DNA of 52,355 nt from a virus, in the IMG/VR virus record IMGVR_UViG_3300020183_000108, positions 1-52,355 of that record. One strand, written 5' to 3'. Of the stretch, positions 11,401 to 34,872 are shown piece after piece. Under the pieces are notes generated by a model that saw nothing but the letters and a program-made list of their open reading frames with translations, did no database searches and was not told where the DNA came from. Both the position numbers and the translations under genes were made by a program. Within the stretch, counting starts at the first letter, position 1, and every line of letters starts with the position of its first letter.

Positions 11401-14400
11401 CGGTCCGGGTTCACCGCAGTCCGTCTGGGCTTCGGCCATGAACGATGATGGTGTTGGTTACACCCAGATGTCTGAAGATGGTCGCCGCGCTTGGGATAAC
11501 GAAGTGGCTACCAGTCCTGTGCCGCCCACTGCGGAACGGGCTCAGTATTACCAAGACACGTTTCTGCCCCAAGATACCCAGCGCGGCATCAGTTACGTGC
11601 GCAGCCTTGCCAGCAAGCTGGCATCTGCCAGCGATGAGCGATACATTCAGATCACTGAGAAGCTGAGTGAGTTGGCCAGCTCTGATAACCAACGTGTTGC
11701 CGCTGAAGCGCAGCGTGCCCTGGATGGTGAACTATCTGGTACGCCCGGTAAGTTCTCTCTTGCCGGATGGAATACCCGTCAGGGGACGGTCAGCGCCGAT
11801 GGTTCACCCACCACACCGATGGCTGTCGGTCGGGTGCGGATGCTTGTCAATAACTTCGTAGCTAAACTGGCAACCAAACCGAAGGTCACGGTGGTGGCCA
11901 ACCAGCAGGAACTACAGCGCACCAACCCGGCGCTGTATCAGCAAGCCATGGCTGCTCGCCCGCAGGGTGACTTCGCCACGGCCAACGCTGCTGGGTACTC
12001 CTTCGGTGACGGCAACGTCATCATCTTCACTGACCGTATTGTCAATGAGCAGCACCTGCGGTTCGTGCTGGCCCATGAGACCTTCGGCCACTTCGGTATG
12101 CGCGGGATCATGCCCGCAGCGCGCTTCGATGCGCTTATGGAAAACATCTATGAGACAGATGGAAGCGCCAAGCTGGCAGTTGATGCCGCTATGGAAGTGC
12201 GCGGGCTGAGCAAGGCCGAGGCCGTTGAGGAGTATCTATCTGACTACGCTGGGCTGCTTGAGACCAGCACGGTTGCCCGGGTGTGGAACACTATCAAGGG
12301 CTTCCTTGAACGCCTCGGTGTGAAGTTCGGTGATACAGCCACTCGGTACTTCCTTGACCAGTCGCGCCGTTATGTGCGGCAGGGTGCCCAGGGTGTGACC
12401 TTTGATGCAGAGGCGGTGGCAAAGCGGCTGCACGCTGTTGAGTACGGCGATACCGGCACTGGCCGGTTCAGCCCGCAGGCAGCGATGAGCGCCAATGCGA
12501 AGGCCAACTTCTTCGCATCACAACTGGCCGAGTTTCCGACAAGCTTGGCTGATGCTTGGAACACAATCACCGACCAGAAAGAGAATATAGCTGATATATA
12601 CACGGACTTTAAGAACAAGTTCCTCAGCCTTGCAAATTACACCGGGTTGAAGAATCCGGGGGCATTCAAGTTTGTCGATTTATTGAGCCAGACCAATTCA
12701 AAATCTATGGCAGTTAAGTCAGCATTAAATGAATACCTGCGCCCTGTGCTCGATGCTCCCAAGGCTGTGCAAGATAAAATCTCACGCGCCATGTATAGTG
12801 CACGTAGTTACAAGATCAGTCAGTTCAAAGCCGGGGAACTCGGCAAAGAACCTCTGTTCAAGGTTGCTGCTGATGGTAGCCTCACCCCAAATACGGCTGA
12901 GCAAGATCGGATTTTCAAAGCCGGTCTGATGACACTCAAGCAGATTCAAGATGGCTACTCGTACAACCGTGAGATCGAAGGTACTGATGGTAAAGTCACC
13001 ACGGTAGAGGAAACCGTGGCCGGTCAAAAGGACTTCACCAAAGAAGATTACGCTTTGTACGAGCGTACTCGGCGCGCTGTATTCAATGTTGAGATGCAGC
13101 TACTCGAAGCCGAGTATGGCGAGCTCATGGCTAATAAGCGCCTGACCAACAAAGAAATCAGTGGGTTCATGGCAGATAACAAACTCACTGCTGAGGATCG
13201 TCGCTTCGTTGATTCTATGGCACGCCGCGCACTGGCTCTCTACACCGAGGGTGCCGGTACTGACCCCACAGGTAACGCTGTGATTGACCCGAAAGCCATG
13301 AAGAAGTCCGATGATTTCTTGGCCGCTGTTAATACTGCGGTGATCGGCACTGATACAGACCGCACTGAAGCGCCCGATGTCAAAACCGGCTTGAGGATAC
13401 GCGACTACTTTGTTTCGCCGCAGGCGGCTGATGCGTTCATCACTGAGCTGACCGCGTTTAAGAATCGTCGTCGGGAGATCACTGATGACAATAGGTTCTT
13501 CCTACAAGGGAAAGTGAAGCAACTCATTCTCAACGAACACAACCTGAACACCAGGGATAAGATCGCACGCCGCGCTGTGATGACCGGATACACCCCGGTG
13601 TTGCGTGAAGGTAGGTTTCAGACCCGCGTTCAGGCATATGTTGGTAATAAGCTCGTTGAGGTAAAAGACGCGCATAAGGCGCTGCTTTCCTACTCTCAGT
13701 TTAACACCGGGCCAGAAGCTAAAGCTATGGCTGTAATGCTCGATAAGGAGTTCGAGGGTAAGACGTTTGAGGTTTTGGTACGCAATGACGCCGGTGAGTT
13801 TGTGCCCACCAGGGTGACGCTTCGTGCTACGACCGGGCGCACAGTGAATGCCGTAGCCGCTGATCCACAGCTTAACCTACAAGATTTCCTGTATGGGCTG
13901 AACCTGTTCAACGTAAATCTCAACCCGGAGAGCATGGCACGTATTGTTACTACGCTGTCGCGTCAGGGTGATAGCGCACGCAGGCGGTTGGAGTACTCTC
14001 AGACCCCCGGTTTCGATCCAACCACCGGTGTCTATGCCATCTCACGGCATATTGAGGGTCGTGCTTCCACCATTGCTAAGGCCAGCACGCGGCAGGCGCT
14101 GCGCGAACTGATGAACCTCGAACTCCCTGAATCACGCACCCTGTGGACGGGTAACAAGCCCCTGGTAGATCAGTTGCAGGCTGAGTTGAACAGACTCAAT
14201 GCCGACCCAAATGCGTCCGAGGATGCCAAGCGGTACACGCTGCAACAACTCACACAGGCGCAGTATCAATACCGCATGACCAACCCAGAGGGGCGTCCTG
14301 AACGCTCTATGATGTTCTATAACCAGTCTGCCTCCACCATGGACTACCTTGAGGGCAGCAAGTATGTAGATGAGACCGACTTCGGCGCAGGTCCTGTTGC

Positions 14401-15982
14401 TTCTCGGGTCCGTGCTTACACCAGCATATGGCAGCTTGGCGGCAGCATGGCTCAGGGTGTCCTGAACCTGATCAGCCCGTACACTAACTGGATGCCATAC
14501 ATGGCTAGCTTCAATGCAAAGAGCGGCTTCGGTGGCGGGTTCAGTATCGGTAAGGTGCAGGCAGCTTACCACTCAGCTTTCCGTCAGGTGGGTGCGCCGG
14601 GTATTCTCCGCATGGAGATGAACCGGGCTGAGTTCTATGACAACGTGGCCAAAGACCCAGCCCTCCAAAAGAAACACGGTCTGACGGTTGATGAAGCTCA
14701 GGCAATCGCCACTGAAATCCGTGAAGGTAAGCTGATTCCGGCGCAGTCAAATGCACTCATTGCCACTGCGCGGGGGCAAACAACCAACAAGTTTCTGCGT
14801 AAGTTTATCGACGGGTACATGCTCCCGTTTAACTTGTCCGAACAGGCGGCCCGTCGTGCGGCTTTCTTGGCTGCGTACCGCTTGAAGCGGGATCAGGCCC
14901 TCGGCGCCGGTAAGTCTCAGAAGGAAGCACAGCAGGAAGCAAGTGACTTCGCGGTGAAGTCCATCGACCTGACTTTAGGGGATTACTCGGTTCTGAACCG
15001 GCCACCCGCGTTCCGGGCTGGCATCACATCCTTCCTCTATATGTACAAGACGTACCCGACCACCACGATCCAGTTACTGGCCAATCTGTCCCGGCCTGCG
15101 CAACTATCCATGCTGGCAGGGCTGTGGTTCCTTTCCGGCGCTGCGGGTCTGCCGTTTGCTGAGGACCTTGAAGACCTTATTGATACCATCTCGCAGAAAC
15201 TAGGGTTCCGGCAAGGTAGCATCCGGGGTGAGATCATCAAGCACATCGAGGCTACGTTCCCTGGCATGTCAGCGCCGTTCCTCAAGGGCTTGGTAAATGA
15301 GTTCCTGCCAATACCCATGGACATCGCTTCTCGTACTTCTGTTGGTAACATCGTCCCTGGTTCTGGGATTGCCTTGGCTGGGGCAGATGTGGGACGTGAA
15401 GTTCTTGATATTCTCGGCCCCGCACCCGGTTTCCTCCTCGGCGCCGCTTCGATGGCGCGTAACTTGGTGGCGTTCCCGTTCTCGTCACGGGTAAGCCTGG
15501 AAGATGTGGCCCGGGAATCGCCGATCACCCTGCTCCGGTTAATGGGTGACTCGTACGCTTACCTACAGTCGGGTGCCGTGGTTGACCGCCGTGGGTATGT
15601 GGTCAGTAAGGATATGGATGCGGGGACCATTCTTACTCGGTTGTTTGGTTTCTACCCCACGCAGGCGGCAAACCAGTACGATGTTATCCGCATCGCCAAC
15701 CGCACCACTGACTACCAGAAGGAAGCCGTGGCTTCGTTCCGTCACGCTTGGATCAAGGCTACCCTGCGCGGTGATACGCAGACAGCCAACGAGATCATGA
15801 ACGACGTGCGCGAATGGAACAACGCCACACGCGGCACCCCACTGGAAATCAGGAACTTCTCAACTGGTAACGCCAGGGCATTGCGTGAGGCTCGGCGGTC
15901 AGCGAGTGAGCGCGCACTGCGCGCGGCACCCCAGGCAGCACAGGGAGACATCCGGGGGTATATCGACGCCCTGATCGATTAG
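8441..15982 (+). CDS. Giant polyvalent ejection protein with zincin-like metallopeptidase motif
   Basis: This protein of 2513 residues has, in order: an N-terminal Ala/Gly region with glycine-zipper hydrophobic segments (about 150-300, 390-430); a (PGTP)n linker near residue 485; a disordered Pro/Ala linker (about 580-960); a domain with HETFGHFGMRG (His1212, Glu1213, His1217), which matches the HExxGHxGxR-type zincin motif of phage polyvalent proteins; a long helical region (1350-2150); and a C-terminal section with MYKTYPTTTIQLL and hydrophobic AGLWFLSGAAGLPF. Such giants are injected with DNA and act on the host or form the conduit. No RNA polymerase motifs of the N4 type were seen. A separate small gene lies out of frame in the linker at 10905-11081. 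Confidence 0.8.
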   Translation: MASGLYYAPLELAESLAMPVAPESTTQASGLGNLGAAGDVYGITTVGGNAGDIYGLTQQAMQRTAGLAPPLPAPPTAAPEGTGAAFYSPSTGKMFAGGMAFDQRDVQSALRAAQQFTAAAGTRPPPDVPDWRPISRVAYENYLTGLSAPRGFGENLVLGARGAVGGFISGIGRGAEMLGATTVGPAIAGVGEAITGQDEFDKQRSALIQQSNSLVSNILDAAVQGIPSVAMSAGAGLVGGIVGGAVGGPAGAAAGATTAATAAQAGRALAAARGIGAVVGLGAVSFPQQLNTFYEAAQNARDAQGRPAYDVNDPNVQLTIAGAALGTSLLDVIAPGRVAFGLSRALTEGAQQAGTQALTGLARARAVGGSAARSGFEEAATEAAQTLAERAVFDPEFRRQLNAEDMKALAPYIVNTYGQDVLIAAGAGALLGAGFGGAGRFIETRGAGSQPRDILDPKQTTAVGGTDAGETGTEPTTIGGPPPGTPPGTPPGTPPGTPPGTSGVSTRVVSTSPGALTIAPGAMDLTQTGYLQAYARRMPDPLGVAGFGGADDTFNRMVSGPAPGTEAPLTSYIYPGPILTEPELTTQPRTPLNVIPGAPAVAPYTPTPTAPIPSGSQPITLVAPGADALRAQRGLTATAQQRQVEQDIQSRVQANASAPRPDVLYDPADPGTTQRAMRSLGVSIEEVLRLRDPMRAMAGAPVTLRDVNEAAALLGRTRASGAVAVRPTPEVSSIMAQAMRDAGLTVEDVVAARNRLRSGPVTYEDVRIAARRKGTELPVRMARTAAPEPMVETALPPALEALAAAPTPTPTPATKLKKGKARAAQVREDEQGGVGQRTGTGGPVPSKGEDRLKSTKKQRGGGQTGRSNLTRQGRAAAQEVTPAPATEVAAQRPLEQPAPSATERAAPSVTPRAEAAAPSAVDRQITRAATSADPTAQLRTLKNELITRRDATADAGRSTTELTGAIARIDALLAEGPITTPAVEGVSGPGSPQSVWASAMNDDGVGYTQMSEDGRRAWDNEVATSPVPPTAERAQYYQDTFLPQDTQRGISYVRSLASKLASASDERYIQITEKLSELASSDNQRVAAEAQRALDGELSGTPGKFSLAGWNTRQGTVSADGSPTTPMAVGRVRMLVNNFVAKLATKPKVTVVANQQELQRTNPALYQQAMAARPQGDFATANAAGYSFGDGNVIIFTDRIVNEQHLRFVLAHETFGHFGMRGIMPAARFDALMENIYETDGSAKLAVDAAMEVRGLSKAEAVEEYLSDYAGLLETSTVARVWNTIKGFLERLGVKFGDTATRYFLDQSRRYVRQGAQGVTFDAEAVAKRLHAVEYGDTGTGRFSPQAAMSANAKANFFASQLAEFPTSLADAWNTITDQKENIADIYTDFKNKFLSLANYTGLKNPGAFKFVDLLSQTNSKSMAVKSALNEYLRPVLDAPKAVQDKISRAMYSARSYKISQFKAGELGKEPLFKVAADGSLTPNTAEQDRIFKAGLMTLKQIQDGYSYNREIEGTDGKVTTVEETVAGQKDFTKEDYALYERTRRAVFNVEMQLLEAEYGELMANKRLTNKEISGFMADNKLTAEDRRFVDSMARRALALYTEGAGTDPTGNAVIDPKAMKKSDDFLAAVNTAVIGTDTDRTEAPDVKTGLRIRDYFVSPQAADAFITELTAFKNRRREITDDNRFFLQGKVKQLILNEHNLNTRDKIARRAVMTGYTPVLREGRFQTRVQAYVGNKLVEVKDAHKALLSYSQFNTGPEAKAMAVMLDKEFEGKTFEVLVRNDAGEFVPTRVTLRATTGRTVNAVAADPQLNLQDFLYGLNLFNVNLNPESMARIVTTLSRQGDSARRRLEYSQTPGFDPTTGVYAISRHIEGRASTIAKASTRQALRELMNLELPESRTLWTGNKPLVDQLQAELNRLNADPNASEDAKRYTLQQLTQAQYQYRMTNPEGRPERSMMFYNQSASTMDYLEGSKYVDETDFGAGPVASRVRAYTSIWQLGGSMAQGVLNLISPYTNWMPYMASFNAKSGFGGGFSIGKVQAAYHSAFRQVGAPGILRMEMNRAEFYDNVAKDPALQKKHGLTVDEAQAIATEIREGKLIPAQSNALIATARGQTTNKFLRKFIDGYMLPFNLSEQAARRAAFLAAYRLKRDQALGAGKSQKEAQQEASDFAVKSIDLTLGDYSVLNRPPAFRAGITSFLYMYKTYPTTTIQLLANLSRPAQLSMLAGLWFLSGAAGLPFAEDLEDLIDTISQKLGFRQGSIRGEIIKHIEATFPGMSAPFLKGLVNEFLPIPMDIASRTSVGNIVPGSGIALAGADVGREVLDILGPAPGFLLGAASMARNLVAFPFSSRVSLEDVARESPITLLRLMGDSYAYLQSGAVVDRRGYVVSKDMDAGTILTRLFGFYPTQAANQYDVIRIANRTTDYQKEAVASFRHAWIKATLRGDTQTANEIMNDVREWNNATRGTPLEIRNFSTGNARALREARRSASERALRAAPQAAQGDIRGYIDALID
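9881..9945 (+). repeat. 12-bp tandem repeat coding for Pro-Gly-Thr-Pro linker
   Basis: The unit TACTCCTCCGGG is repeated four times without interruption and has degenerate edges. It codes for four to five PGTP tetrapeptides within the giant ejection protein. The copies are identical at the DNA level, which points to recent slippage expansion and predicts length variation among relatives. Confidence 0.9.
10905..11081 (+). CDS. Overprinted small basic protein (DUF6496-like) inside the giant gene
   Basis: This 58-residue frame lies wholly inside the 8441-15982 gene in a different reading frame. It starts GTG 10905 with AAGGA at 10893-10897 placed 7 bases upstream, and ends TAA 11079-11081. The protein begins PLKSGKTNKVVSANV and ends AVAISLAKAGRQRKK. 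This pattern (a KSG opening, a VSxNV segment, then K-AVAI-LSKAG with a basic tail) is that of small conserved phage proteins of the DUF6496 kind. The host frame here is a low-complexity linker, so constraint on it is weak. The function of the family is unknown; its basic charge suggests nucleic acid contact. Coding status is inferred from family resemblance and the ribosome site. Confidence 0.6.
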   Translation: MPLKSGKTNKVVSANVQELVDRYQAKGKIGSSRPKNKEAAVKQAVAISLAKAGRQRKK

Positions 15983-22821: not shown

Positions 22822-23478
22822 TCACTTCGCGTATTCGCAGAAATCTTTACACGGGCAATACCGGCACAGACCGCTCGGCTTGGCTGGCCAGTTCTCATTC
22901 TCCATGGAGATTTCAATGCGCCGGATACGGTCGAGTAGCCGTTCCCAATACGCCGAAACGTCCCGCTTGCGGTAAACTTCTTTGTCAGTGCTCATATCCT
23001 GAGTCCAGACAAAGGTGCTGGTTACTAGCTCAACCTCCGGGTGGTGTGCGAACACTTGCAACGCGAACAATTCAAGCTGTGTAAAGTCTGGCCTGCGTTT
23101 GCCAGTCTTCCAGTCCATCACCACAGCACTGTGTTTCTTTACAATCAGCACGTCAAGTTTCGATCTGATCCAGGCGTCAGGGTCCCACCAGCCTGTCGGC
23201 TTGAGGTCCGGATTAAGGGTCATCTCTTGCTCAACATGCAGGCTCCCGGTGCCGATCATGGCTTGGATCACACTGACCACCGGTTCAAGACTAACGATCT
23301 CGGCTGGCAGGTCTGCCACCCCCTTCAACCGTTCTTCCAAGAACTTGTGGATACGCTCACCATGCAGGCTCGCCTCGCCCCCCTGGTCTTTGACCGTCTT
23401 TGCGATACGTTGGTGGTAGTACCGAAGGGGGCAGTTCTCATACATTTTGATGGATGAGAACGAATGGCTGAGCTGCAT
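22822..23478 (-). CDS. Cas4/RecB-like PD-(D/E)XK exonuclease with cysteine cluster
   Basis: This 218-residue protein starts MQLSHSFSSIKMYENC. It has the nuclease core RSKLDVLIV (Asp109), VVMDWKTGK (Asp122, Lys124) and the QLELFALQVF motif (Gln134). Cys16 and the C-terminal CRYCPCKDFC supply four or more cysteines in the arrangement that holds an iron-sulphur cluster in Cas4 and AddB. A DNA exonuclease for recombination or host DNA degradation is expected. No cas1 or cas2 gene and no repeat array are present, so this is not a CRISPR component. The start is chosen at TAATG, overlapping the deaminase stop. Confidence 0.85.
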   Translation of the reverse strand: MQLSHSFSSIKMYENCPLRYYHQRIAKTVKDQGGEASLHGERIHKFLEERLKGVADLPAEIVSLEPVVSVIQAMIGTGSLHVEQEMTLNPDLKPTGWWDPDAWIRSKLDVLIVKKHSAVVMDWKTGKRRPDFTQLELFALQVFAHHPEVELVTSTFVWTQDMSTDKEVYRKRDVSAYWERLLDRIRRIEISMENENWPAKPSGLCRYCPCKDFCEYAK

Positions 23479-23927
23479 TATGTTTCCTCGGGTTCCGATA
23501 CCATGGGTATAACACACACCCCGGCTTCAAGAAACATCTGCTTGGCAACCTCGAACTCCTCGGCTGGCATGTTGGTCTGCCCTGCCCCTGTGTACACCAC
23601 CTGTATGCCAGCCTGGATGAGGGTGCGCGCACAGCGGGCACAGGGCTGGTGGGTGACGTAGGCATACCCACCACGTAGGGAAGCACCCACCCTGGCAGCT
23701 TGGGCCACAGCGTTCTCCTCAGCATGGGCAGTCCACAGGTACTTAGCCGGTCGCTCCATGCGTTCAGCCAGATCACGCACTCCGATAGGGATACCGTTGT
23801 ACCCACTGGCCACAACCACTTTGTCATAGGATGTGACGATGCAGCCCACCTTAGTGCTCAGGTCCTTTGACCGTGACGCCACCATGTCGGCCATGTCCAT
23901 AAAATACTTCTGCCATGACTTGCTCAT
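23478..23927 (-). CDS. Deoxycytidylate (dCMP) deaminase
   Basis: This 149-residue enzyme has the zinc deaminase signature: TAHAEENA (His68, Glu70) and PCARCA (Cys96, Cys99). GYNGIP and the substrate-loop residues are those of dCMP deaminases, which convert dCMP to dUMP for dTTP supply. ATG 23927 overlaps the polymerase stop (ATGA) and has GGAG 7 bases upstream, so it is preferred to ATG 23933. No thymidylate synthase was found nearby, so dUMP methylation probably relies on the host. Confidence 0.93.
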   Translation of the reverse strand: MSKSWQKYFMDMADMVASRSKDLSTKVGCIVTSYDKVVVASGYNGIPIGVRDLAERMERPAKYLWTAHAEENAVAQAARVGASLRGGYAYVTHQPCARCARTLIQAGIQVVYTGAGQTNMPAEEFEVAKQMFLEAGVCVIPMVSEPEET

Positions 23928-25813
23928 TTGCATTCTCCATAGTTGGGACCGTGGTCTGCTTCACATGCTACGGGTAGGTCCGGTGCCCATGACGGCGGTG
24001 TTGACATGACTTCGATCATGTATGCCTTGGCTTCCTCAACCTCAGCTTCATCGCACAGGATCACCACTTCATCGTGCACTTGCAACACGACTTTGTACCG
24101 CCTCCCGATGATAGCCATCTGCTCAGCCACGACAATGCGAGCCAGTGCCTGCACGATATTCTCAACAACCTTGCCCCCGTATATGCGAGTGAACTTATCG
24201 TACGGCATATCTGACCCGGTGACCCTGGCCTTGACCGCTTCCCGATACACACGTGCATCACCAGCATAGACGTAACCGTTCTGGTACTGGGTCAATAGCG
24301 GGTAGCGAATGAACAGTCCGTTGGGCAGCGCGATGCCCTCCTTGGATGTGACCAGTGTGGGCAGCGCATCGGATAGGGCAAACTCATCACCCTCAATGAT
24401 CTTACTCAGCGCCACGTTACAGCGGTTCCACAACGCACCGATTTTGTGGTTCTTATCCCGATACAACATCACGATACGCGTAGCTTCACCCATATCGAGT
24501 TCAACCTTGATACCACCCATACCAAGGGCAAGCGCGTCACGAAACTTCGTTGCGCCCATGCCATAACCGAGGCCGAGGATGCAGGTCTTACCTACGAAGC
24601 GGTCGAGTTTGTCTGCTTTGGTCACCTTGCGGCCATACACTTCACTGGCAAACTCAGAGTAGATGTCACGACCTTCTGCGAAGGCTTGTACCAGATTGGC
24701 CTGACCCGCCACCCATGCCAGTACACGAGCTTCGATCTGTGCTGAGTCACATGCCACCAGCATCTTACCAGCAGGTGCACATATGGAGCGCCGCAGCGCA
24801 CCGCCACGTGGCAGGTTCTGCAAATTCATCTTATCACCACCGCTGAACCGACCTGTGTGCGCGCCGTAGTAGTTAAGCAGGATGGGCAATGTGCCGCGCT
24901 CAGACACACCGAGCAGCGACCGGGTGCGGCTCTCCTCAATGGTTGACTTCACCCCAAGCCGTGCGGCCACGGCATCAGCGACGAAAGAGTTGTCGTGCTC
25001 AAGCAGGCTGGTGAACGGTTTGTCTGTCTTGCTGAAAGCCCATGCCCTCTTACCCGTTGTGACACTAGTCTTGGTAGGTGGGTCGACGCCAAGTAGTGTT
25101 ATGTATGCCGCGAACTTCTCATTGGACATGAGCGTATCACGCGCTGCCTGTGGGTCGATGAACGCAGCAGCGTTACCCAGTGTGTTGAGTAGGTCTTCCT
25201 TACGCAGCACTTCATTCTCAAGGTGTTCGGTCAACACGTCACGGTTAAGGGTGAGCATCGGCTCCGTGTACATACGCAATGTCTGGTCAATGATCATCAG
25301 CTCACTGACCGGGAACCCTCGTGCCATCTTTCGGAACAGCTTGTAGGTAAGCTCCACATCATTGCAGCAATACGATGCGTACCGTTCCGTCTCATAGGGA
25401 GTGAAGTCAGCGCGGCGCTTACCCAGTGCGTTCAGCACTTCGTCACCCTTCTCACCTAGGCGGTAGTGTGCTGCCAACATCTTGAGAGAACCGCCAACCA
25501 TGATGTTGTGCAGGGGGCGAGCCATCGACAGAGTATCCAACCATAGCTTCGGCTTGATGCCGAAGTGCCATGAGAGAATAGCCCCATCAAACACGGTGTT
25601 GTGCGCAAGGATGGCTTTATCGCGGTAATCAAGTGACTTGAGGAACCTACCCGGATCAGTGCCAGTGTACCAATCCGTAGGATGACCGTTGACCTTAACA
25701 GCCACGCCGATCACCTCGAACCGGGGGTCACGCACATAGGCTTCGGTCGTCATCTTGGATAGGCTGTAGTCCCGGTCGTAGTAAGTTTCAAAATCAATCG
25801 TTACTACATCCAT
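23924..25813 (-). CDS. DNA polymerase, family A, with 3'-5' exonuclease domain
   Basis: This 629-residue enzyme combines an N-terminal 3'-5' exonuclease (Asp7 and Glu9 in IDFETY; HNTVFDGAIL; a final YCCNDVELTYKL) with a family A polymerase. Motif A is CDSAQIEARV (Asp356), motif B is R405-x3-K409-x7-Y417G and motif C is VHDEVV (His580, Asp581, Glu582). Position +4 of motif B (Tyr417) fits dNTP rather than rNTP discrimination; its effect on terminator sensitivity is not judged here. It lacks a 5' nuclease domain, as usual for phage enzymes. It overlaps the deaminase gene. Confidence 0.95.
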   Translation of the reverse strand: MDVVTIDFETYYDRDYSLSKMTTEAYVRDPRFEVIGVAVKVNGHPTDWYTGTDPGRFLKSLDYRDKAILAHNTVFDGAILSWHFGIKPKLWLDTLSMARPLHNIMVGGSLKMLAAHYRLGEKGDEVLNALGKRRADFTPYETERYASYCCNDVELTYKLFRKMARGFPVSELMIIDQTLRMYTEPMLTLNRDVLTEHLENEVLRKEDLLNTLGNAAAFIDPQAARDTLMSNEKFAAYITLLGVDPPTKTSVTTGKRAWAFSKTDKPFTSLLEHDNSFVADAVAARLGVKSTIEESRTRSLLGVSERGTLPILLNYYGAHTGRFSGGDKMNLQNLPRGGALRRSICAPAGKMLVACDSAQIEARVLAWVAGQANLVQAFAEGRDIYSEFASEVYGRKVTKADKLDRFVGKTCILGLGYGMGATKFRDALALGMGGIKVELDMGEATRIVMLYRDKNHKIGALWNRCNVALSKIIEGDEFALSDALPTLVTSKEGIALPNGLFIRYPLLTQYQNGYVYAGDARVYREAVKARVTGSDMPYDKFTRIYGGKVVENIVQALARIVVAEQMAIIGRRYKVVLQVHDEVVILCDEAEVEEAKAYMIEVMSTPPSWAPDLPVACEADHGPNYGECK

Positions 25814-28667: not shown

Positions 28668-28852
28668 AGTCCCCTCACTTTCACTGTCACTTTATTTCGT
28701 TCGATCTCAACGGTGTGCGTACCCTTGGCTACGCCGACGAGAGTGCTGCACAGAACATCCTTCTCATCAGTCAGAGCGCGAATCCTGCGCTCCAACCAGA
28801 GGCACCACACGGCCAGCACAAGGCCGAGGGTGACCAGCACAGGTTCGCTCAT
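28664..28852 (-). CDS. Small membrane-anchored protein
   Basis: The 62-residue protein has one N-terminal transmembrane segment (VLVTLGLVLAVWCLWLE, residues 5-21), then a charged helix (RRIRALTDEKDVL) and a beta-type end (HTVEIERNKVTVKV). It overlaps both neighbours by ATGA (upstream VWA gene and downstream 267-residue gene). It could tether a partner to the inner membrane. Function is unknown. Confidence 0.6.
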   Translation of the reverse strand: MSEPVLVTLGLVLAVWCLWLERRIRALTDEKDVLCSTLVGVAKGTHTVEIERNKVTVKVRGL

Positions 28853-29952
28853 ATCTTCACCACCTCACCCCATGGTGCCTTGTCGTCGCCGTTGCTAACC
28901 CACAGCACAGGGTGCTCAGGTGCAGGGCCGAAGTCATCGCAGTACAGGTCTGTCAGAAACACAGTGGCAACAGGGTTGATGTTGACTTCCTCCATGAACC
29001 GGAACACAGGACTGAACGCTGTACCGCCACCACCATGAGGCTCGATGTGCAGCACATCATCACGACCAAAGCGGTCGTAGTGGCACACCTTACTGTCGAA
29101 GTAGATAACGTGCAGGGCAGACGGGTTGCTATCCCCCTTGATTGATCGGACCTCGGCAGCGAACTCGTTGAGTTCACGCTGACCAATCGAACCGGAGCAG
29201 TCAACGGCAATGGCGATCTCACCGAGGCCCTCACCCGTCACGCTAGGTAGGTACAGCCCTTGTGAAAGGAACCGCCTGTTGGGCCGTGAGAAGCTACGCG
29301 TGTCGGTCTTGCACTTCTCAACGAAGCGGCGCAGCACATCACGCCAGTCCACCTTGGGATGCAGTGTCTCGTCAATGAAACGCTGCATGTTGGCAGACAG
29401 TTTGCCCATCATCTTCGCAGCCTGCGCTGCCTGAGCTACCTTTACTCGCCACTCAGCCTGCTCCTGTGCCTGCTCAGCAGGGGAACCATCGGCATCCTGT
29501 ACGTCAGCACCGGTGCCGCCGGGTGCACCCTCATCTTCGCTCTGTTCTGGCAAGATGTTATAAATACCGTCACTGGTACCGTTGCCTGTCTGATAGATGT
29601 TACGGTCGAAGCAGCCGCCGTCGATGAACTTGCCGATCTTCTCGTCAATGAGAAGCTGGTTGATCACGTAGTCAGCGGCTTTGTTCCACCGCATAGCCTG
29701 CCGCCCATGCCGCCTGTAGTTGTGATCAAGCATGGGATGAAAGCACTCATGGGCCACAAGGAATGTGACCTGTTCATCAGTCAGGGTGCCAAGGAAGTCA
29801 GGGTTGAACCTGATTTCCTTGCCGTTGGTGCAGGCAGTCGGGATGGCGTCATCCAGATACATAGGCATGTTGAGTGCAACACTGCCGACGAACGGGTGCT
29901 GCAAGATCAGTGCTGTCTTGGCCTTGGCCAAGCGTTTCATATGGTCCATCAC
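28849..29952 (-). CDS. VWA-domain protein with N-terminal HExxH metallopeptidase motif (DUF2201-like)
   Basis: The 367-residue protein has an N-terminal metallopeptidase-like domain with VAHECFHPML (His68, Glu69, His72), an acidic low-complexity linker (about 135-165), and a C-terminal von Willebrand factor A-like domain with the metal-site motif DCSGSI (Asp251, Ser253, Ser255). This pairing is the DUF2201 architecture and typically works with a MoxR AAA ATPase, found at 31205-32197. Together they may remodel or extract a target protein. ATG 29952 overlaps the upstream stop. Confidence 0.85.
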   Translation of the reverse strand: MMDHMKRLAKAKTALILQHPFVGSVALNMPMYLDDAIPTACTNGKEIRFNPDFLGTLTDEQVTFLVAHECFHPMLDHNYRRHGRQAMRWNKAADYVINQLLIDEKIGKFIDGGCFDRNIYQTGNGTSDGIYNILPEQSEDEGAPGGTGADVQDADGSPAEQAQEQAEWRVKVAQAAQAAKMMGKLSANMQRFIDETLHPKVDWRDVLRRFVEKCKTDTRSFSRPNRRFLSQGLYLPSVTGEGLGEIAIAVDCSGSIGQRELNEFAAEVRSIKGDSNPSALHVIYFDSKVCHYDRFGRDDVLHIEPHGGGGTAFSPVFRFMEEVNINPVATVFLTDLYCDDFGPAPEHPVLWVSNGDDKAPWGEVVKI

Positions 29953-30326
29953 ACAACCCTCAGAAGGCTGATGCCGTTACGCAGCGGGTCACGACACGTG
30001 AGGTAGTTACCGTTGCCCCACATCTGGCCAGCACGTGACGACACGGACGACTGCACTGACCTCAGATCGAAGTCGCCTACAGGTATGAACACCTCATCGC
30101 CCGGACCCATGGTTGTAATATAGCCAAGGACGTAATCGCGCAGGGTATTGTGCGGGTACTTATGTGGTCCCCGCTTACGCACTTTCTCAGGCACTGGTGC
30201 AGCAACCACAAGGGTGCCGTACTCCGTGCCGTTGGGTGCAATGATCTTGTACTGCACACCAAGGCTATCAATGCGCTTGAGCGCATCGATAAGAACCCGT
30301 TGCTTCAGTTCGGTCCATTCAGTCAT
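29949..30326 (-). CDS. Hypothetical protein of the MoxR-VWA operon
   Basis: This 125-residue protein has a helical start (WTELKQRVLIDALKRIDSLG), a beta middle (YKIIAPNGTEYGTLVVA) and a basic HKYPHNTLRDYVL region. The C-terminal SSVSSRAGQMWGNGNYLTC resembles a winged-helix-like motif seen in phage proteins, though this is not firm. It lies between the DUF3150-like and VWA genes and overlaps the VWA start, so it may be a co-factor of that module. Function is unknown. Confidence 0.55.
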   Translation of the reverse strand: MTEWTELKQRVLIDALKRIDSLGVQYKIIAPNGTEYGTLVVAAPVPEKVRKRGPHKYPHNTLRDYVLGYITTMGPGDEVFIPVGDFDLRSVQSSVSSRAGQMWGNGNYLTCRDPLRNGISLLRVV

Positions 30327-30340
30327 CGTTCATTCTCCTC

Positions 30341-31192
30341 TTATATGCCGCTCATGAATGAGCGCATCTTGTCCATGATTTGTTGTGCCTGCTCGGCAGT
30401 GTCTTGCCGCAGGGTCTCGCTTGCCCTCAGTGCATCAGGATGATGCGCTGCCAGTTTGCTCTCCACTTCCTGCCTCATTGCCTCAAGGTTAGGATCATCA
30501 CTGATGTTGAGCCGAGGCAGAAGTTCACACAATTCTTTGGCATGATCAATAAGGCTGTCGTAGATGCGGCCCTTGGGATTACCAAGCTGCCGGGCGATGT
30601 GCTCAACACGCTCAAACAAGCGGTTCCATATGTCACGGGATGCTACCGCATGGGCCTGCTTGAGACGGGATGAAACATCCTCTTGTAACCGTGTCAGTTC
30701 ATCGCTTGACAAGGTCGTACGGAAATCAGTCGAGGGTACAGGAAACACAGCCATGTCGATCTTGAACTTAGCCGCGATCTGGCTGTCATCCGGGTAGTCG
30801 TTATCCAGATACATATTGCCAAGAGAACGCTTGGCTTGCAGCTTGAGTGCTGGGTAATGATGCACGAAGCTGTTGACCAGTGACAGCCACTCACCCTTGG
30901 CAGTACGGAACTTCGTCATGAAGTTAAGATAGTTAGCCGAAGGTAGAAGCTGCGTACCCTCCATGCCCCAGGGCAGCGTGTTGTTGTAGAACTCCGCACG
31001 AATGGCACTGCTCCGAGCATGGACCTGCTCAAGATAGTCGTTAGCAGGCAGAAGCACCTTGTTGAACCGACCAGCATCCTTGCTGGCGTAATTCATGCTG
31101 AGTGCCTGATCGGTTACTCGTTTGTCATGTTTGCGCGCCGTCCACTGTGAGATGGAAAGCTGCACAAGCAAAGCGCGATCACTTAGGTTCAT
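30341..31192 (-). CDS. DUF3150-like protein of the MoxR-VWA operon
   Basis: This 283-residue, mostly helical protein begins with residues MNLSDRALLVQLSISQWTAR, contains TKFRTAKGEWLSLVNSF and FPVPSTDFRTTLSSDELT, and ends in a long charged helix (EQAQQIMDKMRSFMSGI). The ISQWTARKHDK opening and central LPWGMEG region look like the DUF3150 family seen between MoxR and VWA genes in phages and plasmids. That assignment is from memory of the family and operon order, not an alignment. It could be the ATPase adaptor. Confidence 0.6.
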   Translation of the reverse strand: MNLSDRALLVQLSISQWTARKHDKRVTDQALSMNYASKDAGRFNKVLLPANDYLEQVHARSSAIRAEFYNNTLPWGMEGTQLLPSANYLNFMTKFRTAKGEWLSLVNSFVHHYPALKLQAKRSLGNMYLDNDYPDDSQIAAKFKIDMAVFPVPSTDFRTTLSSDELTRLQEDVSSRLKQAHAVASRDIWNRLFERVEHIARQLGNPKGRIYDSLIDHAKELCELLPRLNISDDPNLEAMRQEVESKLAAHHPDALRASETLRQDTAEQAQQIMDKMRSFMSGI

Positions 31193-31204
31193 CGTTCTGT
31201 CTCC

Positions 31205-32197
31205 TCAGAAAAGTACATCGTTGTGTTTGACTGCCCACTGCGTAAACGCTGCCGTGTTGGCTAGGGCAGGGCTACGCCGTGCCGCTTGGCTGACGGTCAG
31301 TACGCTGAACTCAGGCGGCATACGCTCACAGTACATGCACACTCTTGCAAAGTTACTGTCAGTAGCACGTGTCGCCAGTGCACCAGACAAGGCATAGAGT
31401 GTCGCCGGGTCAGACGGCACATCGGCAGTATCAGGGTGCAGCAGGATGCTGTCAGGGTTAGGCAGCTTGCGGAAGATACGCAGAAACCCCACAAACTCAG
31501 CCGCAGCGCCCTCACCAACAGCACCTTTGAAACATTCGTACTCTGCATCAGGCGGCACTACACCAAGCACAGCGGAGACACCCTCAACCCATGACCTAGG
31601 TGTGGGATTGCAGTCCCGCTGTGGGTCGAAGTCATGCAGCAAGTTAGGCCGGAAGCGTAGGAAGCTGACCACCTCAGCCTTCACACCATGGCTCAGCATC
31701 CATGCAGAGCTGTCATCGAGGTGTGTCTCAAGCTCAAGCACAGTCTCACGGTTACGCAAGTGAGACAGCACACGGTTAGCCCCAGCACGGTCACTCTGCC
31801 TGTTACCAGTGGACACGACAGACCAGCCATCGGCCATAGGTACACCATGCAGGTTCCTTGCCTGACAGATGTTTGCCAGAACCTTCTGCAAGTCGGCACT
31901 GGCTTGGTTACGGTCATCGAAGCAGAGCACACCGCCCCTATCAGTGTCGTGCTGACTGCCCTTGGCAGGGAACCAGTCGGGTATTTTATATGCAAGTGTG
32001 GCACCGTCGATGGTAGGTATGCCGAAGTCCTCAACCAGCATGGTTGGCATGTGCCGCTCGATGTATTGCAGACCTAGATCATGCGATACATCCTGTGTGA
32101 TGGTGGTTTTGCCACCGCCCGGCGGGCCTTCGATACAGACTGTTCGCTGCGCCTTGATAAGCGCCGCAAGTGTAGCCTTCATAAGCTGTGGTCTCAT
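31205..32197 (-). CDS. MoxR-type AAA+ ATPase
   Basis: This 330-residue ATPase has Walker A GPPGGGKT (residues 24-31), Walker B GGVLCFDDRNQA (near 88-99) with the acidic pair Asp94-Asp95, a sensor-like STGNRQSD, and a helical lid with DFDPQRDCNPTPRSW. These match MoxR AAA+ proteins, chaperone-type ATPases that act with VWA proteins to mature or remodel partners. The DUF3150-like and VWA/HExxH genes follow. Phage MoxR modules are known but their targets are not. ATG 32197 has a good GAG-rich ribosome site. Confidence 0.88.
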   Translation of the reverse strand: MRPQLMKATLAALIKAQRTVCIEGPPGGGKTTITQDVSHDLGLQYIERHMPTMLVEDFGIPTIDGATLAYKIPDWFPAKGSQHDTDRGGVLCFDDRNQASADLQKVLANICQARNLHGVPMADGWSVVSTGNRQSDRAGANRVLSHLRNRETVLELETHLDDSSAWMLSHGVKAEVVSFLRFRPNLLHDFDPQRDCNPTPRSWVEGVSAVLGVVPPDAEYECFKGAVGEGAAAEFVGFLRIFRKLPNPDSILLHPDTADVPSDPATLYALSGALATRATDSNFARVCMYCERMPPEFSVLTVSQAARRSPALANTAAFTQWAVKHNDVLF

Positions 32198-32208
32198 GTT
32201 CTCTCTCC

Positions 32209-33234
32209 TCAGTGTTTACGTGTTGATGGTGCGTAGTAATCGTCAAGGCACTTGTTGAAGTCGTCAACTGTGATGCCAAGCTCCTCAAGCATCAGTGTCG
32301 CAACCTCGGGGTTATCCCACACAAGATCACTCAGTGTGGGAGCAAAGCGATGGTAGCCTGAGCCACGTGCTGCCTTGGTGACGGTCGATGACCAGCCACC
32401 GTAGTCGTAAGCATACTCGTTGTCCTTGGCTGGATCACGCATGACTGGCAGTGCTGCAATATCAAGCTGACACAAACGCTCAAGCAAGTGAGCAGCAAAC
32501 GACACGTCAAGATACTCGTTGCTGGTATGAGCGTTGAAGTACCCAACGCTGAGGTTGGTGCACTCTGGCACAAGGTCAGTGTAGTTAGCCGTATCTGTGA
32601 ACGTACCGCCGGTGTCCAGAGTGAACGGCTTGCCAAGCTGCGCTGCCAGTGCAGAACCAAATGCGTCAGAGGCACAGCGTAACCCTTGGTGTGTGATGAC
32701 ACTGGTGGTGCCACGGCGGTCGAACGCAATGGCATACTGTATGCTGGTCAGTAGCTCTGGCGTGTGTTTGGCGATGTAGGTTGAACCGAGGCCACCCACT
32801 TCCTCGCTGTCATGGAAGATGTATAGACCCGGCACGTTACGCCGGATCATGTTGACCATTAGCCACACACCAACGGTGCAGTCAGCACCAAGGCACGATG
32901 ATTGGGATGTCTCGTGCAGTGACAGCAAGCCACCGCCATAGACCACCTTCTGTGTGCCAGCAGTGCGGTGCGCAGTGTCAGTATGTGATGACCACAGTAC
33001 GGGGTGGTCAGTGAGACTACCCACTTGCAAGATACGATTACCTGCCTTGTCGATGGTCATGCCGGGGATGTCATCTAGGTACTGCTTGCAGAACGCAGTG
33101 ACAGCCTTGGTACCTGCCGGGCGGCAGGTAGTGTGCATGGTAACCAGCTCACGAATGGCTGGTGTGGTGAATGTTGGTGGCTTGGTGAATGGCTTGGTCA
33201 TAGGCTTGGTTGGCTTGGCTGGTGTGAATGTCAT
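32209..33234 (-). CDS. M20/M28/M42-like zinc metallopeptidase
   Basis: The 341-residue protein has the residue set of co-catalytic zinc amino- or carboxypeptidases: SSHTDTAHR (His84, Asp86), CLGADCTVGVW (Asp118), FHDSEEVGGLGS (Glu144, Glu145), IAFDRRG (Asp172) and NAHTSNEYLDV (His236). In this fold the residues bind two zinc ions and a general base. A Lys/Pro/Thr-rich N-terminus precedes it. Peptidases of this type are uncommon in phages. It may act on host peptides or on proteins handled by the adjacent MoxR module. AAGGAACAACAACA precedes ATG 33234. Confidence 0.85.
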   Translation of the reverse strand: MTFTPAKPTKPMTKPFTKPPTFTTPAIRELVTMHTTCRPAGTKAVTAFCKQYLDDIPGMTIDKAGNRILQVGSLTDHPVLWSSHTDTAHRTAGTQKVVYGGGLLSLHETSQSSCLGADCTVGVWLMVNMIRRNVPGLYIFHDSEEVGGLGSTYIAKHTPELLTSIQYAIAFDRRGTTSVITHQGLRCASDAFGSALAAQLGKPFTLDTGGTFTDTANYTDLVPECTNLSVGYFNAHTSNEYLDVSFAAHLLERLCQLDIAALPVMRDPAKDNEYAYDYGGWSSTVTKAARGSGYHRFAPTLSDLVWDNPEVATLMLEELGITVDDFNKCLDDYYAPSTRKH

Positions 33235-33252
33235 TGTTGTTGTTCCTTGTTC

Positions 33253-34752
33253 TTATGCTGCCATGGCAGCATTGAAGTCGAGCACATGTTGGTTGTGGTC
33301 ATGAATGGTAGGGCTGGTCGGTGACAGCTTGAATGTGTCGCTGTCGTCATAGTGCTCGGCACAGTCAGTGCACACCATCTCACCATCGTCGTTGTGTGTG
33401 CTGCTCATGAAGTCGTTGGTGTACGCTTCACCACAGTCGGGGCAGACGAAGTAATCATCGCCTGTCTTCTCTGCACACCATGTCTCAGTGGTGGTGCCAC
33501 CACGAGCTGTCCGTACGGTCACCTCGACAGAGATGAAGTGGCGACTGTCATAGTAAGCCCCAGTATGCTCACAGTAGAAAGCATTGTTGTCACAAGCATC
33601 CTGCGACCATGTTTGTGTCGTCTCCCGAAGGCTGGTATCGTTGAAACGGTATCGACATCCCTTGGTGACGACTTGATTGCAACCATGGTCATCTGGGTAG
33701 TTTTCCTCATTGCGTTCACAGAAGAACGTACAGCTCTCGTAACAGTGGTAACAATAGGTATCGCCCTGCACAACTTGGGCCTCGTCTTCATCCACACCAT
33801 CGCCGCAGTGGTCACATGTGTACTGCGACCTGCTTTGGATATACCCGTTGGTATTGGTGGCACTGTACTGACCATCAAAGTCAATCTCAAAGTGGTCACC
33901 GTAATCGACCACACTCTGCACATCACCGTCGATGTAGGGCATGACAAACCTAGAACCGCCGTTCATCTCAATACGGCGCAGCCTTGCACCAGAGAAGTCG
34001 TGGGTACGAGTAAAACCAGCAACCTGTAATTTCTCACGAAGGGTGATCCGCATAGTCTCACTGATGCCATACAGCTTGACGTATGTTTCCTGGGAAGGCC
34101 ACACCAAAGTACGCGCCAGCACCTTGTCGGGGTTGTTGGGGTCACGGATATAGGCAATGGCCAGCGAGTCGCTTCGTGAACCCGTGTAATACACAGCAGC
34201 AGGGTGTACTGGTGTGCCATAATGATCCGTTGGTTTAGCCATGCAGCTTACGTGTGTGCTGCTCTCGCTGCATACTTGTTGGTTCTCATAAGCGAAGATG
34301 AAGGCTTCCTTGGTCTGCTCAATAGTCAGGGTGTAGGTATCTACTGCAAACTTACCAGCGATATCCCTGATCTGGTCACTCGACAGGGTACCAGAGTGAT
34401 AACGAGCAAGATAACGAGTGACGGGCAGCTTGAGCTGTACGTCTTGCTGACCCTTGGTTGGGTTCTCAGTGAACGCCAGCATACCATCAGTGATGGTGGT
34501 ACCTTGGGCCAGATGAACGAAGTGGTCAGGGTTGCAGTAAAGTTCGAACCAGCCTGGCACTGGTGTGTAGGTTCCGTCCTCCAGACGGATGCGTTCTCGT
34601 GCCATCCATGAGTTATCATCAGGATCAGTGATAGCTTGGATACGAGTACGGAAACTATACATACCACGAGCCATCACAGCTTCCTGCGCTGTATCGTAGA
34701 TGATATCCGATACGGGTTCGTCGGTCTCGACATTGATAACTTGATAGGGCAT
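33253..34752 (-). CDS. Large early protein with two zinc-ribbon pairs
   Basis: The 499-residue protein starts MPYQVINVETDEPVSD at 34752, with GAGG upstream. The N-terminal 300 residues hold an unrecognised alpha/beta region including CSESSTHVSCMAKPTDHYGT and HPAAVYYTGSRSDSLAIAYI, reminiscent of a shared but unnamed phage domain. Cysteines pair as C313-x2-C316 with C334-x2-C337, and C437-x2-C440 with C461-x2-C464, two likely zinc ribbons, with further Cys between. It is the first gene after the AT-rich control region, so it may be the earliest product of the arm. A nucleic acid or RNA-polymerase-modifying role is only a guess. Confidence 0.65.
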   Translation of the reverse strand: MPYQVINVETDEPVSDIIYDTAQEAVMARGMYSFRTRIQAITDPDDNSWMARERIRLEDGTYTPVPGWFELYCNPDHFVHLAQGTTITDGMLAFTENPTKGQQDVQLKLPVTRYLARYHSGTLSSDQIRDIAGKFAVDTYTLTIEQTKEAFIFAYENQQVCSESSTHVSCMAKPTDHYGTPVHPAAVYYTGSRSDSLAIAYIRDPNNPDKVLARTLVWPSQETYVKLYGISETMRITLREKLQVAGFTRTHDFSGARLRRIEMNGGSRFVMPYIDGDVQSVVDYGDHFEIDFDGQYSATNTNGYIQSRSQYTCDHCGDGVDEDEAQVVQGDTYCYHCYESCTFFCERNEENYPDDHGCNQVVTKGCRYRFNDTSLRETTQTWSQDACDNNAFYCEHTGAYYDSRHFISVEVTVRTARGGTTTETWCAEKTGDDYFVCPDCGEAYTNDFMSSTHNDDGEMVCTDCAEHYDDSDTFKLSPTSPTIHDHNQHVLDFNAAMAA

Positions 34753-34843
34753 TGTAAGGTTACCTCGTATATGCCATCGGCTAGGCCGGGATTGGCCGCC
34801 GGATTTGAACATAGCACGCCCCGCCGATTCGGTCAAGCCTGAC

Positions 34844-34872
34844 CTTATACAGGTGTACACAATCTATTTTTA
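34844..34872 (-). promoter_or_regulatory. Candidate promoter overlapping ACAATCTA repeats
   Basis: On the minus strand the -10-like TATAAG (34844-34849) lies 17 bases from TAAAAA (34867-34872), a poor -35 element inside the first 20-bp repeat. The predicted start near 34838 is about 86 bases ahead of ATG 34752. The weak -35 with a repeat placed on it suggests activator or repressor control rather than constitutive use. Confidence 0.35.

Follow-up and report, generated by a model that had tools for sequence, protein, structure and literature searches.

An AAA+ ATPase of the MoxR type, encoded beside a protein with an N-terminal metallopeptidase and a C-terminal VWA domain, has already been published for group 2.2 jumbo phages (Iyer et al. 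2021, PMC7824862); the passages of that paper cited here propose a role in virion assembly and describe no third partner. Likewise published is the core status of gp24 and gp25 in N4-like phages, where both are middle genes and gp25 has a vWFA domain (PMC4193335, cited in part). Here we describe a related locus in the IMG/VR virus record IMGVR_UViG_3300020183_000108 (positions 1 to 52,355; this whole stretch of 52,355 nt is called the window). Its minus strand encodes, between 28849 and 32197, an AAA+ ATPase, a DUF3150-like protein and a protein joining a zincin-like metallopeptidase domain to a short VWA domain. To the jumbo-phage pair this trio adds the DUF3150-like gene and carriers that form no virions. 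It is conserved as a unit, its active-site motifs intact, in elements that range from phages and prophages to a conjugative transposon and conjugative plasmids.

Other known systems share part of this make-up. NorQ-NorD likewise combines a MoxR AAA+ ring with a VWA partner that bears a MIDAS; the ring is plugged by the VWA domain, and acidic residues of the target are the presumed binding site of the MIDAS. NorQ-NorD differs, however, in having two components and in being a metal-insertion chaperone with a known target, nitric oxide reductase (PMC9976466, PMC13036017, both cited in part). The VMAP ternary MoxR-vWA conflict systems (PMC7159879) follow the same three-gene logic around MoxR and vWA, but their third partner and domain content are different and they come from cellular genomes, often those of multicellular bacteria. 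A further relative is ORF100-103 of plasmid pCAR1, where genes for a MoxR-like AAA+ protein, DUF3150 and a VWA protein with an N-terminal HExxH stand in a row, as in the phage trio. The pCAR1 VWA protein is nevertheless longer and of CobT/NorD type, its DUF3150 protein has 399 aa, and the cited passage of PMC2642839 does not mention the metallopeptidase motif.

Beyond this pCAR1 passage, the trio was not found described as a unit in the literature searched, from which the word DUF3150 is absent. Four features were not found there and appear unreported: a DUF3150-like protein as third member, a gene order that shifts while the company stays constant, the HExxH-VWA architecture common to phage and conjugative triads, and the fact that a neighbouring peptidase pair is separate from the trio.

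The trio as a co-inherited unit

Loci were collected from IMG/VR with the VWA protein (80 loci, the best 80 of 155 relatives), with the peptidase encoded next to the trio (32) and with the DUF3150-like protein (37), and genes were mapped over them with tblastn and profiles. Among all the loci fetched, from IMG/VR and other sources, a complete trio was present in 116 and was co-directional in every one. After dereplication (n=81), the order ATPase-DUF3150-VWA was found in 70 loci, ATPase-VWA-DUF3150 in five (seen in Chitinophaga, Niastella, Paraflavitalea and Tannerella) and DUF3150-ATPase-VWA in six (Ensifer, Pseudovibrio, Hoeflea and Bartonella).

Loci anchored on the DUF3150-like protein give the same picture. 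The VWA gene was present in 34 and the ATPase gene in 33 of the 37 from IMG/VR, the gaps being contig ends, and among the 17 from GTDB the two genes were present in 17 and 16, the exception being a cut locus (L164). Pairwise distances of the three proteins correlate strongly (r=0.94-0.95, n=81), to which common phage ancestry contributes; among 29 divergent loci the correlation is r=0.70-0.83. We have little doubt that the three-gene unit is real and that the adjoining peptidase is separate from it.

Mobile elements and chromosomes

Both lytic phages and prophages carry the trio, and so do conjugative plasmids and a conjugative transposon of Bacteroidota; cyanophage MinM2 also has it. The 17 GTDB loci belong to Pseudomonadota and Bacteroidota, to one Acidobacteriaceae bin, to several desulfobacterial ones and to one labelled actinobacterium. 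Five of them were classified by their neighbours: L168 has lambda-type portal and terminase genes, L172 has terminase as well as DNA polymerase III beta, L165 has conjugative transposon TraM together with ParB, and L174 and L177 have ParB-like genes. Three Burkholderiales plasmids typed conjugative (L157-L159) carry the same trio, one of them with PRTRC genes alongside.

Among 398 Pseudomonadota genomes, the DUF3150-like profile found one match, which is the seed genome itself. DUF2201_N, the metallopeptidase part of the VWA protein, scored above its cut-off in 14 of the 398, with the ATPase adjoining in the stronger loci. The HExxH motif was retained in 94 of 95 mobile-element copies (IMG/VR clusters 69/69, named phages including the window 6/6, plasmids 3/3, GTDB trio loci 16/17) versus 4 of 11 chromosomal ones (Fisher p=1e-7, uncorrected for shared descent, the 11 loci probably representing few lineages). 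Its retention in mobile elements suggests that real cutting may take place there. Six chromosomal DUF2201 proteins encoded beside an ATPase (L180-L183, L185, L186) read HHxxH, the catalytic glutamate being lost.

Conjugative plasmids

In pCAR1 the genes for the AAA protein, DUF3150 and a NorD-like VWA protein are consecutive. An IncA plasmid has the order AAA, one gene, bet, exo, DUF3150, VWA, and pAQU1 has the same order plus a small extra gene. A Citrobacter plasmid reads recT, exo, one gene, MoxR, DUF3150, VWA; a Methylophaga plasmid reads AAA, two genes, DUF3150, VWA, with a PD-(D/E)XK gene upstream. PF11348 is matched at 8e-92 by the pCAR1 DUF3150 protein and at 4e-60 to 4e-89 by those of the IncA, Citrobacter and Methylophaga plasmids, the pAQU1 protein being DUF3150 by annotation. 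All five plasmid VWA proteins have an N-terminal HExxH at residues 57-61.

In a tblastn search the pCAR1 VWA protein matched 1145 plasmid records, 965 of them typed conjugative. DNA of the IncA DUF3150-VWA genes was matched in 91 of 5426 complete E. coli genomes, and 91 of the 92 places were plasmids. ORF100-103 are conserved in R478, Rts1, SXT and R391, and the authors of the transcript mapping proposed a role in transfer (PMC2642839, cited in part).

Trio proteins

The ATPase (330 aa, 31205..32197, minus strand) matches AAA_5 at 24.3 bits, just above the Pfam cut-off of 22, and PHROG 1297 ATPase at E=1.2e-61. In the alignment with 25 relatives its Walker A glycines (Walker A at 32108-32128, minus strand), K30, D94, N132 and R201 are all invariant, and the features expected of a MoxR-type AAA+ ATPase, namely an AAA_5 domain with Walker A, Walker B, sensor 1 and a conserved arginine, are all there. 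Midasin, NorQ, CbbQ and CobS are among the PDB profile matches, and the subfamily label MoxR is given by resemblance.

The DUF3150-like protein (283 aa, 30341..31192, minus strand) was modelled by AlphaFold2 as predominantly helical, with a predicted local distance difference test score (pLDDT) of 85.5. Foldseek found no PDB match of the model at E<=0.001. VIA-align matches reached Z 9.0 and were discarded as uninformative because they cover mainly a helical bundle (residues 160-283) and include designed proteins. Between this gene and the VWA gene lies an optional member for a small protein (125 aa, 29949..30326, minus strand) of unassigned family: it has no Pfam, PHROG or NCBIfam match, and homologues with a closed frame occur in seven dereplicated clusters, one of these homologues being a 57-aa fragment.

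The third component (366-367 aa, 28849..29952, minus strand) matches PF13203 (DUF2201_N, E=1.1e-50) and PF09967 (E=9.7e-26), both well above cut-off, and PHROG 1314 (E=1e-98). It carries HExxH (H67-H71, 29737..29751, minus strand) and the MIDAS DxSxS (D250-S254, 29188..29202, minus strand), with T310 and D334 further downstream; H67, E68, H71, D250, S252, S254, T310 and D334 are invariant in all 26 aligned proteins. The protein thus has the full layout of a DUF2201 metallopeptidase-vWA cochaperone, an N-terminal DUF2201_N HExxH and a C-terminal DUF2201 VWA with MIDAS. Given such invariance in aligned relatives, the motifs of the ATPase, of the HExxH-VWA protein and of the peptidase are not due to chance.

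The window protein was matched in 547 phage records, and many of these proteins are labelled 'HNH endonuclease', also in RefSeq. This is the PHROG 1314 label as well; Pfam gives it no backing and we take it as a misannotation. Two database records deserve a remark. Enterobacter phage SonariX (248,734 bases) gave scores with the VWA query equal to those of the 76-kb phage SABI and is perhaps a composite record, and a 75,126-base Acinetobacter baumannii 'plasmid', with matches much like those of phage Ab2712, could be a phage genome entered under the wrong heading.

The neighbouring peptidase and its partner

Between 28849 and 33234 the minus-strand open reading frames for the peptidase, AAA+ ATPase, DUF3150-like, small and HExxH-VWA proteins follow each other head to tail, with gaps of 11-18 nt or overlaps of a few nt. 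An earlier note on this DNA had listed an AAA+ ATPase, a helical partner, an HExxH plus MIDAS protein and a zinc peptidase here, and all four are in place with their motifs intact. It had passed over the fifth gene (29949-30326), and the same-strand block continues on both sides, with the upstream gene 33253-34860 and further genes downstream.

The peptidase is an M20/M28-like two-metal hydrolase (341 aa, 32209..33234, minus strand). It matches PHROG 4191 'peptidase' at E=7e-75 and the PDB profile of Peptidase T 3gb0 at E=4.1e-7, and falls below cut-off for M28 PF04389 (17.0 bits against 21.3) and for the PepT-like TIGR01883 (E=8.8e-6, 24.9 bits against 274.25). The clan MH (M20/M28) set of sites, H-x-D, bridging D, EE, D and H, is complete: H84, D86, D118, E144, E145, D172 and H236 are invariant in 26 aligned proteins and likewise in all 29 of a second set. 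We take these seven positions to be the metal ligands and catalytic residues.

The earlier note had joined all four genes into one protein-processing system with two proteases acting together. Their adjacency on one strand, in the window, in three related clusters and in L117, speaks for this. Over the clusters as a whole the peptidase goes with another gene: the zinc-ribbon gene lies directly upstream of it in 26 of 29 peptidase clusters, and the trio is present in just four of the 29. DUF2201_N, searched in the whole of 25 peptidase-bearing records, was absent from 24, of which the non-complete ones may be fragments; three of the 24 are complete phage genomes, those of Pasto (Rhizobium), BDU-MI-1 (Bradyrhizobium) and KpV41 (Klebsiella). 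Conversely, of the 47 trio clusters whose upstream sequence spans 5 kb or more, 43 lack the peptidase and four have it. The earlier note had named independent presence in relatives as what would refute its proposal; by that measure the peptidase is independent, and four-gene co-occurrence does not hold. The co-inheritance of ATPase, DUF3150-like and HExxH-VWA genes survives from that proposal, the union with the second peptidase does not, and a working four-gene system is now very improbable.

Peptidases of PHROG 4191 are known from Drulisvirus and other podoviruses. Pasto, BDU-MI-1 and KpV41 have a zinc-ribbon homologue followed by a peptidase of the same family, as the window does, but unlike the window they lack DUF2201_N altogether. 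Zinc-ribbon gene and M20/M28-like hydrolase make up a two-gene podovirus module, seen at 32209-34860 of the window and in L002, L003, L006 and L098-L120.

The zinc-ribbon partner (33253..34860, minus strand) has a Cys-rich C-terminal half with the zinc ribbon. Its true start is likely the ATG at about 34722, the protein of close relatives beginning MPYQ. The model (pLDDT 82.8) gave VIA-align rows that are nearly all GNAT-type transferases, some classed so by title and others by what we take to be their family; they cover residues ~160-345 with Z 6.5-4.3, under the tool's trust level. Pfam returned weak zinc-ribbon matches only and no GNAT, so that the GNAT-like middle region is a lead and not a finding. 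The best Foldseek match in the PDB was a LIM protein (E=6e-3), and BFVD matches were mostly uncharacterised phage proteins, including those of KpV48 and Buco. An IMG/VR scan with the zinc-ribbon protein gave no relatives, while tblastn over the loci already fetched did find them. That this pair might join a hydrolase to an acyl- or peptidyl-transferase is an attractive idea, but only a lead.

Possible function of the trio

The best overall explanation, to which we give a probability of about 0.6, is that the trio forms an ATP-driven remodelling machine of mobile genetic elements, possibly a proteolytic one, built of three components. By analogy with NorQ-NorD, the VWA domain would dock on the AAA+ ring, its MIDAS metal would grip an acidic patch of the target, and ATP hydrolysis would pull on the gripped protein. 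Conservation suggests that the DUF3150-like protein may recognise or scaffold the target and that the HExxH site may cut either the target or the complex itself. Judging from its gene context, the machine would act early, alongside genes for replication and recombination, its substrate being a protein that sits on the element's DNA or a host factor met at entry, and not virion parts; that its role is early and non-virion has, in our estimate, slightly less than an even chance. Its place in the early strand block and the recombination genes nearby speak for DNA-bound proteins or host factors, and host defence or a DNA-bound complex is a possible target. One may go further and picture an element-wide targeted ATP-driven protease, with a MoxR ring, a DUF3150 adaptor and a zincin-VWA protein, which would be shared by lytic phages, prophages, transposons resembling integrative and conjugative elements, and the big conjugative plasmid families, and would clear at entry a host or DNA-bound protein barrier that all these invaders meet. 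This picture is doubtful.

Several observations weigh against a common remodelling machine. Most loci were retrieved with queries derived from the window, and the chromosomal HExxH comparison is small, as said above. The middle protein scores 18.0 bits against PF11348, under the gathering cut-off of 24.9, and is therefore named 'DUF3150-like' only, as the earlier note had aptly worded it; a Chitinophaga homologue from the same DUF3150-like profile scores 25.2 bits. In the loci fetched from N4-like Vibrio phages, Thermus phage phiFa and Bacillus phage G, ATPase and VWA genes were found (in the Vibrio phages the ATPase lies near DUF2201-VWA as in the window) but DUF3150 was undetected, so that it seems dispensable in some phages. 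In L110, a 41.8-kb record without DUF2201_N, a DUF3150-like match (13593-14339) lies near the peptidase pair. Compared by profile, the window trio and pCAR1 match at E=2e-9 for AAA and only weakly, at E=0.0016, for DUF3150, and the phage and pCAR1 types of VWA protein gave no significant match; phage and pCAR1-type triads may thus be very distant or convergent. Finally, in roseophage RPP1 the homologues of N4 gp24/gp25 have genes for virion proteins close by, which fits a structural role (PMC4193335, cited in part).

This last observation favours assembly or maturation of the virion, in which the MoxR and metallopeptidase-VWA proteins would remodel and cut structural proteins, as Iyer and colleagues proposed for the group 2.2 jumbo phages with Acidianus two-tailed virus as precedent (PMC7824862, cited in part). 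We nevertheless regard it as improbable. Conjugative plasmids and the conjugative transposon carry the trio and make no virions, N4 gp24/25 are middle transcripts (PMC4193335, cited in part), and in the window polymerase, helicase, exonuclease and primase genes are on the minus strand like the trio, the structural genes lying opposite. Capsid maturation, among the targets suggested by the earlier note, is weakened accordingly: as a general role of the trio it is unlikely because the trio occurs on virion-less elements and has replication or recombination genes beside it. Another proposal is that the trio loads, strips or matures the element's own DNA proteins, such as single-stranded DNA-binding protein, recombinase or polymerase. 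In its favour are the bet and exo genes found within the clusters of IncA and pAQU1, the recT and exo genes immediately upstream in Citrobacter, a PD-(D/E)XK gene upstream of the Methylophaga triad, the polymerase and exonuclease genes downstream of the trio in the window, and the SXT operon starting at s089, described as a RecA-independent recombination system (PMC4344509, cited in part). Neighbourhood is, however, weak evidence in compact phage genomes, and the three Burkholderiales plasmid loci have no annotated recombinase in view, two of them having ThiF or PRTRC genes instead; we entertain such a chaperone tentatively.

Counter-defence would have the trio dismantle or cut a host complex that attacks incoming DNA, be it restriction, a nuclease or another defence, and would account for a trio common to phages and conjugative elements. 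The spread over lytic phages, prophages, plasmids and the conjugative transposon agrees with this, as do the rarity of the DUF3150-like profile in cellular genomes and the HExxH kept in mobile copies. On the other hand, deletions of bet, exo, s067, s068 and s070 in SXT lowered transfer by at most 10-fold (PMC2791158, cited in part), although the host may lack the relevant defence and the identity of s067 and s068 as the DUF3150 and VWA genes is inferred from position. We consider counter-defence rather unlikely.

The remodelling machine, if real, would turn a core gene pair of N4-like phages, plasmid genes of unassigned function and an orphan phage operon into one testable system. With the trio present on virion-less elements, experiments should turn away from capsid processing and towards early infection and DNA maintenance, and its constancy indicates which proteins to co-express.

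Genome context of the window

Structural genes of the window lie on the plus strand, and the trio lies on the minus strand together with replication genes for primase-like, SNF2-type helicase, exonuclease, dCMP deaminase and DNA polymerase proteins. In the same strand block are DNA polymerase A (23924..25813, minus strand; PHROG 17 DNA polymerase, E=1.1e-90) and a PD-(D/E)XK exonuclease (22822..23517, minus strand; PHROG 69 exonuclease; PF12705, E=1.8e-18). Megablast of window positions 1-25000 against phages gave no matches. On the plus strand, a large open reading frame (8441-15982) encodes a protein of 2513 aa without a Pfam match at E<=0.001.

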